Source: Chromatiales bacterium
Lineage (GTDB): Bacteria > Pseudomonadota > Gammaproteobacteria > UBA6429 > Thiohalophilaceae
Assembly: GCA_026984045.1 (NCBI GenBank)
Contig: JALSSV010000067.1
Span: forward strand, 62,001-126,000
Reading direction: 5' to 3'
Length of the DNA: 64,000 nucleotides
Shown here: piece after piece, positions 56,019 to 62,776 of the stretch
Numbering within the stretch: position 1 is the stretch's first letter
Layout: every line of letters starts with the position of its first letter
The notes under the pieces: model-generated
What the model was told of the DNA's origin: nothing
The model's input: only the letters and a program-made list of their open reading frames with translations
Database searches by the model: none
Position numbers and translations under genes: made by a program

Positions 56019-56030
56019 CCCAAACCGATT

Positions 56031-56083
56031 CAGCGCCGATTTGACGATCAGATTGCGGGCGCTATAGAAATGCGGCTAAAGCG
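56031..56083 (+). ncRNA. SAM-II-type (S-adenosylmethionine) riboswitch upstream of metK
   Basis: The stem P1 is AGCGCC / GGCGCT (56032-56037 with 56058-56063). Its loop contains GATTTGAC and GATTGC, and the 3' side reads ATAGAAATG then GGCTAAAGC. These conserved blocks and their spacing match the SAM-II pseudoknot. A terminator follows at 56109, so SAM binding would cause premature termination. SAM-II is known mainly from alphaproteobacteria. SAM-V, its structural relative, is an alternative. Confidence 0.78.
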
Positions 56084-56108
56084 AGGCAGGAAAACCCGGA
56101 TTCCCGAA

Positions 56109-57334: not shown

Positions 57335-57388
57335 AAGGCAAAGGCGCGAAGGACGCAAAGGGGATTTTTGTTGCGGTAGGAGCGGCGC
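57335..57388. repeat. ACGCAAAGG-type motif plus half REP
   Basis: AAGGCAAAGGCGCGAAGGACG continues to CAAAG (57335-57361), followed by GTAGGAGCGGCGC (57376-57388), a single arm of the REP-like palindrome without its partner. They lie between metK and the ahcY promoter. Confidence 0.6.
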
Positions 57389-57424: not shown

Positions 57425-57435
57425 CGAACGGCCTC

Positions 57436-57511
57436 ACCCGAGGGGCGCTGCAGCGGGGTTCTCCCGTCAGGCTCGGGTCGGGGTTCGCAACTGGCAACAA
57501 CGGCGCTCATT
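57436..57511 (+). ncRNA. SAH (S-adenosylhomocysteine) riboswitch upstream of ahcY
   Basis: The conserved core is present: CCCGAGGGGCGCTGCAGCGG, CCCGTCAGGCTCGGG and CAACGGCGCTC at the 3' side. These form the P1, P2 and pseudoknot pairings of the ahcY-associated SAH aptamer. It lies 29 bp upstream of the ahcY start. SAH binding is expected to switch expression on, probably by exposing the ribosome site. Confidence 0.93.
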
Positions 57512-57540
57512 CCACCTGCAATCACTGAGGAGAATGAACC

Positions 57541-58962
57541 GTGAACGCTGTATCCCCGACTGACTTCACCGACTACAAGGTCGCCGACATCAACCTGGCC
57601 GACTGGGGCCGCAAGGAAATCGCCATCGCCGAGACCGAGATGCCCGGCCTGATGGCCATCCGCGAGGAGTTCGCCGATCAGCAGCCCCTCAAGGGCGCCC
57701 GCATCACCGGCAGCCTGCACATGACCATCCAGACCGCGGTGCTCATCGAGACCCTGGTGGCCCTGGGCGCCGAGGTGCGCTGGGCCTCGTGCAACATCTA
57801 CTCCACCCAGGATCACGCCGCCGCGGCCATCGCCGCCGCCGGGATCCCCGTGTTCGCCTGGAAGGGCGAGACCATCGAGGAATACTGGTGGTGCACCGAG
57901 CAGGCCCTCACCTGGCCCGACGGCCAGCAGCCCAACATGATCCTCGACGACGGCGGCGACGCCACCTTGCTGATCCACAAGGGCGTCGAGTTCGAGAAGG
58001 CCGGCAAGGTGCCCGATGCCTGCCCCGGCGACAACGAGGAATGGGTGGCCATCCTCGACCTGCTGCGCCGCACCCTCGAGTCCAGCCCCGGCAAGTGGAC
58101 CGCCATGGCCGAGTCCATCCGCGGCGTGACCGAGGAGACCACCACCGGCGTGCACCGCCTCTACCAGATGCAGGAGAAGGGCGAGCTGCTGTTCCCGGCC
58201 ATGAACGTCAACGACTCGGTGACCAAGAGCAAGTTCGACAACCTCTACGGCTGCCGCGAATCGCTGCTCGACGGCATCAAGCGCGCCACCGACGTGATGA
58301 TCGCCGGCAAGATCTGCGTGGTGCTCGGCTACGGCGACGTGGGCAAGGGCTGCGCCCAGGCCTTCCGCGGCATGGGCGCCACCGTCTGGATCACCGAGAT
58401 CGATCCCATCTGCGCCCTGCAGGCGGCGATGGAAGGCTACCGGGTAGTGACCATGGACGAGGCCGCCAGCCAGGGCAACATCTTCGTCACCGCCACCGGC
58501 AACGTGAACGTGATCGACCACCACCACATGGCGGCCATGAAGAACGAGGCCATCGTCTGCAACATCGGCCACTTCGACTCGGAGATCAACATCGCGTCGC
58601 TTGAAAAGTACGAATGGGAGGAGATCAAGCCGCAGGTGGATCACGTGATCTTCCCCGACGGCAAGCGGATCACCATCCTCGCCAAGGGCCGCCTGGTGAA
58701 CCTCGGCTGCGCCACCGGCCACCCCAGCTTCGTCATGTCCGCCTCCTTCACCAACCAGGTGATCGCCCAGATGGAGCTGTACCAGCACTCCGAGAACTAC
58801 GAGAACAAGGTCTACATCCTGCCCAAGAAGCTGGACGAAAAGGTCGCCCGCCTGCACCTCGGCAAGCTCGGCGCCCACCTCACCCAGCTCTCGCCGGAAC
58901 AGGCCGAGTACATCGGCGTGCCGGTGGAGGGGCCGTACAAACCGGAGCACTACCGGTACTGA
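57541..58962 (+). CDS. ahcY: S-adenosylhomocysteine hydrolase
   Basis: This protein has 473 residues from a GTG start at 57541, with GAGGAGAATG upstream. It has the NAD-binding [18 protein letters not shown] and DQTA-like catalytic segment [22 protein letters not shown]. The C-terminal end PEHYRY supplies the Tyr/Lys pair that closes the NAD site. It splits SAH to adenosine and homocysteine, relieving methyltransferase inhibition, and is regulated by the SAH riboswitch. Confidence 0.98.
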
Positions 58963-58980: not shown

Positions 58981-59188
58981 AACGCAAAGGCGCGAAGGCG
59001 CAAAGAACGCAAAGGTTGGGAAGGGTGTAGGAGCGGCGCCCTCGCCGCGACCATGCGGTAGCGTAGCGGGTGACGGGTAGCTGGTAGCTGGGAAAAGCGT
59101 GGTTTTGTGCCCAGCCACCCAGCCCCAGCTACCCGCTACCGCCACATCGCGGCGAGGACGCCGCTCCTACCAGACAAACCTTTGCGTC
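58981..59188. repeat. Concentric composite of three inverted repeat families between ahcY and metF
   Basis: From outside in: ACGCAAAGG motifs (58981-59014 and, inverted, 59179-59188); REP-like palindromes (59026-59052 and 59147-59170); GGTAGCGGGT repeats (59057-59098 and 59110-59140). Each family has an inverted partner in mirror order around about 59104. It contains no open reading frame of note. Confidence 0.7.
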
Positions 59189-59216: not shown

Positions 59217-60071
59217 ATGGAAACCCAACGCCAACATCCCCAGCAGTTCAGCTTCGAGTTCTTCCCGCCCAAGACCGAGGAAGGCAAGACAAAGCTGGAA
59301 AAAACCCTGGCTACCCTCGGGGCGCTTGAGCCGGCCTACTTTTCCGTGACCTTCGGCGCCGGTGGCAGCACCCAGGAGGGCACCTTCGAGACGGTGAAGA
59401 TGATCATGGCCGCCGGGTTCGCGGCGGCGCCGCATCTGTCGTGCATCGGCTCCACCCGCGAGAACATCCGCGCCATTCTCGAGCAGTACCGGGCGGCCGG
59501 CGTGCGGCGCATCGTGGCCCTGCGCGGCGACATGCCCTCGGGCATGCGCGAGGCCGGCGAGTTCCACTACGCCAACGAACTGGTGGCCTTCATCCGCGAG
59601 ACCACCGGCGATCACTTCCACATCGAAGTGGCCGCCTACCCCGAATTCCATCCCCAGGCCCCGGGCGCGCGGGCCGACCTGGCCAACTTCGCCCGCAAGA
59701 TGGCCGCCGGCGCCAACAGCGCCATCACCCAGTACTTCTTCAACCCCGACGCCTACTTCCGCTTCGTGGACGACGTGGAAAAACTGGGCGTGACCGCGCC
59801 CATCGTGCCCGGCATCATGCCCATCACCAACTACACGCAACTGGCCCGTTTCTCCGACATGTGCGGCGCCGAAATCCCCCGCTGGATCCGCAAGCGCCTC
59901 GAGGACTACGGCGACGACCGCGAGGCCATCCGCGCCTTCGGCGAGGAGGTGGTCACCGATCTCTGCCACCAGCTCCTGGAGGCCGGCGCGCCGGGGCTGC
60001 ACTTCTATACCATGAACCAGGCGGGGCCGACGTTGTCCATCTGGAAGAACCTCGGGCTGCCTGAGGGGTGA
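59217..60071 (+). CDS. metF: 5,10-methylenetetrahydrofolate reductase
   Basis: This 284-residue protein starts METQRQHPQQFSFEFFPPKT, the standard MetF opening. FAD-site segments are YFSVTFGAGGST, LRGDMP and TQYFFNPDAYFRFVD. IVPGIMPITNY with the C-terminal GLHFYTMN are conserved. It makes 5-methyl-THF, the methyl donor that regenerates methionine from the homocysteine released by AhcY. The start has no recognisable Shine-Dalgarno; the sequence before it is C/A-rich (CCCAACCCCAACCC). Confidence 0.96.
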   Translation: METQRQHPQQFSFEFFPPKTEEGKTKLEKTLATLGALEPAYFSVTFGAGGSTQEGTFETVKMIMAAGFAAAPHLSCIGSTRENIRAILEQYRAAGVRRIVALRGDMPSGMREAGEFHYANELVAFIRETTGDHFHIEVAAYPEFHPQAPGARADLANFARKMAAGANSAITQYFFNPDAYFRFVDDVEKLGVTAPIVPGIMPITNYTQLARFSDMCGAEIPRWIRKRLEDYGDDREAIRAFGEEVVTDLCHQLLEAGAPGLHFYTMNQAGPTLSIWKNLGLPEG

Positions 60072-60094: not shown

Positions 60095-60130
60095 AACACG
60101 GAGGACACGGAGGCACGGAGAGCACGGAGA
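60095..60130. repeat. ACACGGAGG-type tandem repeat
   Basis: AACACGGAGGACACGGAGGC then ACGGAGAGCACGGAG gives four degenerate 9-bp units. The complement of the same motif is at 46608. Confidence 0.65.
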
Positions 60131-60138
60131 TTTGTTGT

Positions 60139-60166
60139 TGCAGGAGCGGCGCGAGCCGCTCCTGCA
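60139..60166. repeat. REP-like palindrome, perfect 12-bp arms
   Basis: TGCAGGAGCGGC-GCGA-GCCGCTCCTGCA. It is the most symmetrical member of the family, in the metF-bioA gap. Confidence 0.72.
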
Positions 60167-61783: not shown

Positions 61784-62521
61784 ATGCCCATTCCCCGCAT
61801 CTTCCTTCCCGTTCCTCTCGCCTCCGGCCAGGTCGTCGAGCTGGACGACAACGCCCGCCGGCATGCGGTGCAGGTGTTGCGCTTGCGCGATGGGGACGCC
61901 CTGGTGCTGTTCAATGGCGAGGGGGGTGAGTTCGAAGCCGTGATCGACAGCGCCGGCAAGCGCGCGGTGACGGTGCGCGTGGGCGCGTTTCACGACGCGG
62001 AACGCGAATCGCCGCTGGCGGTTCACCTGGGCTTGGGAATATCCAAGGGCGAGCGCATGGACTTCGCCCTGCAGAAGGCCACCGAGCTGGGCGTGGCGGC
62101 CGTCACGCCGCTGTTCACCGAGCGGGTGGTGGTGCGGCTCGACGACAGGCGCGCGGCGAAACGCCTCGCGCACTGGCAGGGCGTGATCGTCGCCGCCTGC
62201 GAACAGTGCGGCCGCAACCGGCTGCCCGTGCTGCATGCGCCGCAGCCCCTGGCGACCTGGCTCGCCGGGCGCGACGAGAACCGGCGCCTATTCCTCGATC
62301 CGCAGGCCACCCAGGCCCTGGGCGGGCTGCCCGCCCCTGCGGGCCCGCTGGCCCTGGCCATCGGGCCGGAAGGCGGCTTCACCGGAGACGAACGCCGGGC
62401 CATCGCCGCGGCGGACTTCACCGGCGTGCGCCTGGGCCCGCGGGTCCTGCGCACCGAGACCGCCGTTCTCGCCGCGCTGGCGGCGGTGCAGGTGTTGTGG
62501 GGGGATCTGGGTGGCGGGTAG
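61784..62521 (+). CDS. rsmE: 16S rRNA (uracil(1498)-N(3))-methyltransferase
   Basis: This 245-residue SPOUT methyltransferase has HAVQVLRLRDGDALVLFNGEGGE in the N-terminal PUA-like domain. The C-terminal knot contains GISKGERMDFALQKATELGV, RVVVRLDD and LAIGPEGGFTGDERRAI. It methylates the ribosomal decoding region with SAM. Its TAG stop (62519-62521) lies inside a GGGTAGCTGGG repeat, so the last residues (GDLGGG) are repeat-derived. It lacks a clear Shine-Dalgarno. Confidence 0.95.
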   Translation: MPIPRIFLPVPLASGQVVELDDNARRHAVQVLRLRDGDALVLFNGEGGEFEAVIDSAGKRAVTVRVGAFHDAERESPLAVHLGLGISKGERMDFALQKATELGVAAVTPLFTERVVVRLDDRRAAKRLAHWQGVIVAACEQCGRNRLPVLHAPQPLATWLAGRDENRRLFLDPQATQALGGLPAPAGPLALAIGPEGGFTGDERRAIAAADFTGVRLGPRVLRTETAVLAALAAVQVLWGDLGGG

Positions 62522-62776
62522 CTGGGTAATCTCGCAAAACGTATCACACTCACAATGCCGGCTCCGCTGCGCTTGAGCCGACCTACGAAGCTGTCGCCGG
62601 AAACCCGAACGGCAAATCGCGGCGGGGGCGCCGCTCCCACGGGGTCTTGCCACCTTCTGCAAGATGTCGATGGACTCTCCGAGGGCAAGGATTCGGAATC
62701 GATTCCGGAAAAGCAGGAGCGGCGCCCCCGCCGCGACCGGGAAAACCAAACGCCTTTCCCGCCCACCCGCTACCCC
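62509..62776. repeat. Composite repeat cluster between rsmE and cheW
   Basis: The outer pair is GGTGGCGGGTAGCTGGG (from 62509) facing CCCGCCCACCCGCTACCCC (62753-62776). Inside it lie a GTAGGTCGG-type palindrome (62555-62586) and two REP-like copies facing each other (62616-62640 and 62713-62738). No gene lies in this gap. The outer repeats provide the stop codons of rsmE and cheW. Confidence 0.7.

Follow-up and report, generated by a model that had tools for sequence, protein, structure and literature searches.

Between ahcY and metF in an uncultured Chromatiales bacterium, several kinds of inverted repeat are arranged in mirror order around one centre, which raises the question of whether they arrived by successive insertions at a dyad or together as one composite mobile unit. 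The window is the whole 64,000-nt stretch of DNA analysed, and positions without a prefix are window coordinates. Its genome of origin (the own genome, G000) comprises 2.98 Mb in 104 contigs with 99% completeness; the congeneric genome G001 served as the relative for two-species comparison. In the features below, K denotes short, degenerate unit arrays (usually three or four units per arm), R a REP, and H an array of 7-bp units.

57541..58962, plus strand: ahcY, upstream gene (stop 58962), from its open reading frame, its name in the initial annotation and gene order in relatives
58981..59015, plus strand: K left arm, four units AACGCAAAG-GCGCGAAG-GCGCAAAG-AACGCAAAGG, of the K1 dialect CGCAAAG/CGCGAAG
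59027..59050, plus strand: left REP, GTAGGAGCGGCGCCCTCGCCGCGA, with its own stem-loop; left end of the REPIN-like unit
59055..59096, plus strand: H left arm, array of 7-bp units (GGTAGCK), from sequence reading
59097..59109, no strand: central loop, from the RNA fold
59110..59142, minus strand: H right arm, from sequence reading
59147..59170, minus strand: right REP; right end of the REPIN-like unit
59177..59187, minus strand: K right arm, one unit left, 11/11 complementary
59217..60071, plus strand: metF, downstream gene, from its open reading frame, its name in the initial annotation and gene order in relatives

Read directly, the layers run K> R> H> loop H< R< K<, with a mirror centre at about 59103, which confirms a hairpin in a hairpin in a hairpin between two methionine-cycle genes. 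The 37-nt inverted repeat 59027-59063/59134-59170 has 86% complementarity. As RNA, the nest is predicted to fold at -126.6 kcal/mol, compared with -84.0 (sd 4.7) for dinucleotide shuffles (z -9.0); none of 200 shuffles folded as well, and the window, tiled into 614 stretches of 208 nt, gave no lower value. The long RNA hairpin proposed in the initial annotation is thus predicted by folding. That annotation had also described three mirrored inverted-repeat families with each motif present twice, inverted. The mirror order stands on the direct reading and on the fold, but the layers amount to two things rather than three, and the two-copy description fails for K, which has four units on the left and one on the right, and for exact GGTAGCGGGT, which is confined to the right H arm (59131-59140, minus strand). 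The H arm on the left is the same type of array in degenerate form, lacking exact GGTAGCGGGT.

The two things are distinguished by how their parts are dispersed. A search of the own genome with the nest as query gave 117 matches, and about 30 places cover the whole R-H-H'-R' (query 52-196). Based on 18 copies compared beside the focal one, this unit is about 137 bp long, with GTAG/CTAC ends, a near-constant spacing from REP to array, and a variable centre. The REP scan gave 93 matches against 5 in a Markov control, which was used because the reversed REP resembles the REP and so makes an unfair control. The single-motif H scan was weak (70 matches vs 43 reversed and 24 Markov), and its hits were therefore left out. 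In the own-genome sequence examined there are 26 distinct head-to-head REP dimers, with interiors of H in 18 cases (121-144 bp), of D (arrays of units like GGGACGA) in 5, and of other sequence in 3. R and H therefore form one composite unit that is dispersed whole. By its anatomy, this is a GTAG-type REPIN with an array palindrome as its interior: it has GTAG-ended REP stem-loops in head-to-head pairs and in many copies, and the one Y1_Tnp (RAYT) gene of the own genome has these same REPs on either side. The anatomy is as in Bertels and Rainey 2011 (PMC3116915). With known REPINs and RAYT-associated GTAG REPs the unit shares GTAG/CTAC ends, head-to-head REP stem-loops, a hairpin-forming spacer and many intergenic copies, and in known REPIN systems the Y1_Tnp gene likewise lies between REPs (PMC3116915; PMC3733652). 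Unlike in known REPINs, the spacer here is itself palindromic, built from arrays of 7-bp units that come in two kinds (H and D), and the surrounding palindrome belongs to a family associated with a different gene. Such nesting has been seen before: Di Nocera 2013 describes REP dimers inserted within palindromes in three species (PMC3733652).

K behaves as a separate element. The own genome contains 27 K arrays vs 0 for the reversed pattern, and a 752-kb sample of it contains 11 clusters with K>K< alone and 9 with H>H< alone, together with REPs in several arrangements. Among 26 own-genome K pairs examined (the focal nest, whose right K arm is one unit, is left out of this count), 22 have loops empty of R, H, D and the dispersed palindrome P, and the filled loops hold one REPIN with H, one REPIN with D, one P, and one R plus P. 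In G001, 12 of 31 K pairs, taken from stretches chosen for K arrays, have filled loops, 9 of these with R and H or D, so that 16 of 57 pairs across the two congeneric genomes hold a REP, REPIN or other palindrome. One K pair (C13:192138) is empty in the own genome and filled by a REPIN with H in its G001 orthologue; between the two genomes, intergenic sequence is too diverged for exact junctions. These filled and empty pairs, and the orthologous empty and filled site, indicate that nests arise by insertion into K loops. K is thus a separate inverted-array palindrome that received a REPIN unit in its loop.

A single composite mobile unit, with K and all inner layers transposing as one, would account for the complete REPIN found in the same order inside two further own-genome K pairs (L060 and L064). 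It is very improbable given that most own-genome REPIN copies lack K, that the great majority of own-genome K pairs hold none of the inner elements, that an orthologous pair is empty in one species and filled in the other, and that other palindromes (P) also occupy K loops; the empty K pairs and the K-less REPINs led us to reject one unit for all three layers. The alternatives offered by the initial annotation, successive insertions or one composite unit, therefore each hold for a different layer: R plus H is composite, and K is a separate recipient. The order seen elsewhere, on which that annotation had staked the mirror arrangement, is mixed. K lies outside R, and R outside H or D, in the two further own-genome pairs and in the nine from G001, whereas further copies are one-armed or differently ordered.

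The window holds one further nest and two partial ones:

62510..62776, no strand: second nest, with H outside and a P element and tail-to-tail REPs inside
57345..57386, plus strand: K array with a partial REP upstream of ahcY, from sequence and comparison with G001
60097..60165, plus strand: after metF, a CACGGAG-dialect K array accompanied by a short REP hairpin, from sequence

The second nest reads H> (62510), P< (62560), R< (62630), R> (62713), H< (62765). The initial annotation had called it a similar two-layer nest; it is real, but it has H outside and its REPs point the opposite way to those of the focal nest, so layer order is not fixed. The orthologous G001 gap is apparently almost absent (extrapolated to 3 nt). 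The P element, GGCTCAAGCGCAGCGGAGCC (62560-62579; also L063 and L080), is a dispersed palindrome that also occurs inside K loops. In the own genome, the gap before ahcY and the one after metF each contain a nest that is damaged or only half present. In G001, a K array, a REPIN enclosing D and a K remnant occupy the first gap, and a full K[R D R]K nest occupies the second. Two RNA motifs were matched nearby, a SAH riboswitch (RF01057, 62.2 bits) at 57434-57515, just upstream of ahcY, and SAM_alpha (RF00521) at 56023-56102, the latter with a score exactly at the cut-off of 36 bits.

Among 110 loci examined in relatives, 101 retain the order ahcY-metF and 9 have one gene only. Comparison of this gap among relatives, as the initial annotation had advised, revealed many different hairpins; at the focal site, the REPIN of G001 encloses D and has another REP loop, and of K there is a mere remnant.

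Within K pairs, the two arms are no more alike than arms of different pairs (p 0.41 and 1.0; 10 and 6 pairs), which gives no sign of pair-specific selection for pairing. The same likeness test rules against arms that arise by inverted duplication, or are corrected through a hairpin, within each pair. For H, the arms of one unit resemble each other less than they resemble those of other units (17 units), most likely as a result of mixed orientations. In one G001 K pair (L350:4200-4414), both arms have two outer CACGGAG units and inner CGCAGAG and CGCGGAG units in the same chimeric order; this pair is possibly an intermediate of a dialect switch with arm correction.

A gene partner for K was suggested by a K pair in a distant genome that encloses a GxxExxY gene (Pfam PF13366; NCBIfam TIGR04256). 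The only GxxExxY gene of the own genome (C98:9949-10299) is framed by CGCAGAG K arrays, and the G001 gene at the orthologous place by CACGGAG arrays. We compared the left and right 200-nt flanks of 30 PF13366 loci from 274 genomes of the class as inverted repeats; loci were placed by HMM match positions, as the motif expression alone found 7 of 33. Flank scores were at least 12 in 27 of the 30 loci, at least 14 in 25 and at least 16 in 22, compared with 16%, 11% and 7.6% of mismatched left/right pairs (n=870). Inverted short-unit arrays thus lie on both sides of the gene at the 25 loci scoring at least 14, the own gene included. Among other own-genome genes, 7 of 692 had a flank score of at least 16, several of them lying between neighbouring K arrays. 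The units vary by locus (CACAGAG, CACGGAG, CGCAGAG, CGCAAAG, CACGAAG, CGCCAAG, CATGAAG, CACGGAA, CGCGAAA and others), and K consensus arms of three dialects match both flanks of 12, 10 and 13 of the 30 loci; none of 30 PF05635 loci was matched on both flanks by these arms.

Association across genomes agrees with this pattern. Of the 274 genomes, 25 have the K1-type pattern, 45 have PF13366 and 16 have both, vs 4.1 expected (Fisher p 1.5e-8, ignoring phylogeny); 9 of the 25 K-positive genomes have no PF13366 match, some at 99-100% estimated completeness. The more alike two GxxExxY proteins are, the more alike their units tend to be (Mantel r 0.53, p 0.0001, n=28, ignoring phylogeny), and this also holds by another measure with near-identical proteins dropped (r 0.54, n=24). 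Comparison of sequences therefore shows that the GxxExxY gene and its arrays travel together, with recognition of the arrays by the protein being putative. Because arrays of the K family also flank GxxExxY genes, K pairs look like gene-less GxxExxY elements. The focal K dialect, CGCAAAG, differs from the CGCAGAG flanks of the sole GxxExxY gene in the own genome, and the focal K thus has no cognate gene there; GxxExxY genes with CGCAAAG flanks occur elsewhere (L363 and L368). To the known description of the family (TIGR04256 / PF13366, PDDEXK_3), our data add members flanked by inverted K-type arrays; in the open-access literature we found no description of flanking arrays or dispersed gene-less copies for GxxExxY.

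In an alignment of 30 GxxExxY proteins, G21, G23, L25, E26, Y29, E76, K78, Q90, Y94, N107 and F108 are invariant and D66 is kept in at least 90%; we take E76, K78 and Q90-Y94 to be RecB-type active-site motifs. The predicted structure (mean pLDDT 95.5) had its best match in SSO0001 (Foldseek E 5e-4, low TM-scores), presumably a Cas4 protein, with weaker PDB matches to lambda-type exonucleases. A weak Cas4 model match, below cut-off, supports the Cas4 likeness. The protein is accordingly predicted to be a Cas4/lambda-exonuclease-like nuclease.

The two species differ in K dialect throughout their genomes. The pattern CRCRGAGRCRCRGAG has 115 matches in the own genome and 143 in G001. Counted by hand, the 100 own-genome matches listed comprise 88 of CGC type, 10 CACGGAG and 2 mixed, and the 50 G001 matches listed comprise 6, 41 and 3, respectively (Fisher p 3e-20, among the matches listed). 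The main unit is CGCAGAG in the own genome and CACGGAG in G001, a genome-wide switch that occurs at sites the two species share. The G001 stretches examined contain 37 K sites, 15 of which could be mapped to examined own-genome sequence; of these, 10 have arrays in both species (6 switched dialect, 1 mixed and 3 unchanged), and 5 have no array in the own genome. Two of the 6 switched sites are the two flanks of the GxxExxY gene, and in both species the dialect of these flanks is the main genome dialect. Between the species, GxxExxY shows 63% protein identity, compared with 81-97% for other genes in the stretch except a gene call inside GxxExxY itself (65%); this divergence reflects either replacement at the same place or fast divergence. 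In the open-access literature we found no description of a concerted dialect switch or of an association between arrays and GxxExxY.

Array position bears on whether K is mobile at all. With gene positions from a codon-based gene caller, the 50 clusters containing both orientations lie between codirectional genes in 32 cases, convergent genes in 17 and divergent genes in 1, and never inside genes; the background of 459 gaps of 30 nt or more comprises 304, 70 and 85, respectively. Of these paired clusters, 49 of 50 are placed after genes, and a role at transcript ends is plausible from this placement. The K arrays and hairpins could then be immobile host parts (terminators, uptake sites or protein-binding sites) selected at gene ends, with GxxExxY lying between them by chance. 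Such parts would be expected after genes, the K sites common to both species are consistent with them, and a dialect changed in place fits them as well, since one host protein reading a set of sites would have this effect; the different hairpins that fill the ahcY-metF gap in different relatives point the same way. We nevertheless regard this explanation as unlikely, as arrays frame GxxExxY on both sides in many genera, the array unit follows the GxxExxY protein, and a third of the mapped G001 sites (5 of 15) have no array in the own genome.

The mirror order could reflect either targeting of loops or survivorship. In gaps with K pairs, both genomes taken together, 14 of 15 R units lie inside loops, against an expected 60% (p 0.005). 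Random insertion, followed by the loss of inserts that fall outside loops and break a hairpin or gene, would leave the same order as a residue. This is a serious contender that we rate slightly below an even chance: 60% of the free bases in such gaps are loop to begin with, and the K loops of the own genome, taken by themselves, show no enrichment of REPs (3 inside, 1 outside, p 0.61), with a REP density below the intergenic mean. G001 argues against it: 11 REP units lie inside K loops and none outside (expected share 0.53, p 0.001), and their density in K loops is 3.8 per kb vs 1.7 in all intergenic DNA. The random-insertion account bears on loop targeting alone and is compatible with a REPIN lying in a K loop.

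The reading we prefer, with a probability of about 0.62, starts from what the sequences show, a REPIN lodged within the loop of a palindrome built from GxxExxY-type arrays, and adds that such arrays would be kept or moved by GxxExxY. The nuclease would maintain or move arrays of its own dialect, a relation modelled on RAYT, which is thought to do likewise for REPs. REPINs would enter K loops because these are non-essential and perhaps single-stranded targets, and the mirror order would be a record of successive survivable insertions at a dyad. Once transcribed, the nest would form one long hairpin at the transcript end.

The inner layer has a possible counterpart of its own. Genes of PF05635 (the 23S rRNA intervening-sequence protein, a four-helix bundle) occur in 57 of the 274 genomes, and 25 of 30 loci have inverted repeats in their flanks scoring at least 14, vs 2% of mismatched pairs. 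These repeats are mostly arrays of 7-bp-like units, and the arms covary with the protein (r 0.31, p 0.0004, n=25). The H and D consensus match both flanks in just 1 and 3 of the 30 loci, respectively; flanks close to H occur at L406 and close to D at L386, L390 and L409. Copies of PF05635 in the own genome use units other than H and D, and one of them adjoins AAGAG-like arrays. H and D may be gene-less relatives of PF05635/IVS elements, whose loci have inverted short-unit arrays, but they match those loci in sequence too rarely to be assigned to that group; unlike IVS elements, the H palindromes of the own genome carry no gene. The Coxiella 23S rRNA IVS (S23p / PF05635) has been described as stem-loops with inverted ends and a small gene, replacing a hairpin loop (PMC4990558), and the own 23S rRNA gene likewise holds an intervening sequence. 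That sequence (L411, G000:C90:4900-6300) includes a PF05635 gene with short repeats CAGTTATCAGTATTCAG adjoining. At L393, L402, L406 and L407, the PF05635 genes have a common right flank, GGGGAATCGTCTA, apparently a tRNA gene, and the array unit differs in each.

Cyanobacterial heptanucleotide repeats are short, degenerate 7-bp units in hairpins and resemble these arrays by description. Our search of the open-access literature found no relevant account of array-flanked four-helix-bundle genes and no relevant description of the K, H or D unit sequences.

Considering the sequence patterns of both families, we infer that GxxExxY and PF05635 proteins may mobilise the arrays. More tentatively, K with GxxExxY and H/D with the IVS four-helix-bundle protein might belong to one unrecognised class of mini-element: a small gene framed by inverted arrays, with many gene-less palindromes, in which the unit dialect follows the protein, can switch genome-wide at kept positions, and which enters hairpin loops to give concentric nests. 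A likely partner is thereby offered for a protein family whose NCBI name is no more than its motif, and also for puzzling short-unit arrays between bacterial genes. Because the arrays accompany the gene and their unit varies with the protein, a partnership like that of RAYT and REP is directly testable. The two species provide a case of concerted change, in which numerous scattered arrays stayed where they were but took on a new unit; such a change requires conversion between copies, turnover or an altered reader protein.

Two larger palindromic inserts in the own genome (G000:C63:47146-47527 and C98:8051-8368) have a common core with GTCACG. Both are missing from the orthologous G001 gaps, and the gaps measure 382 nt in the own genome vs 180 nt in G001 and 318 vs 113 nt, respectively.
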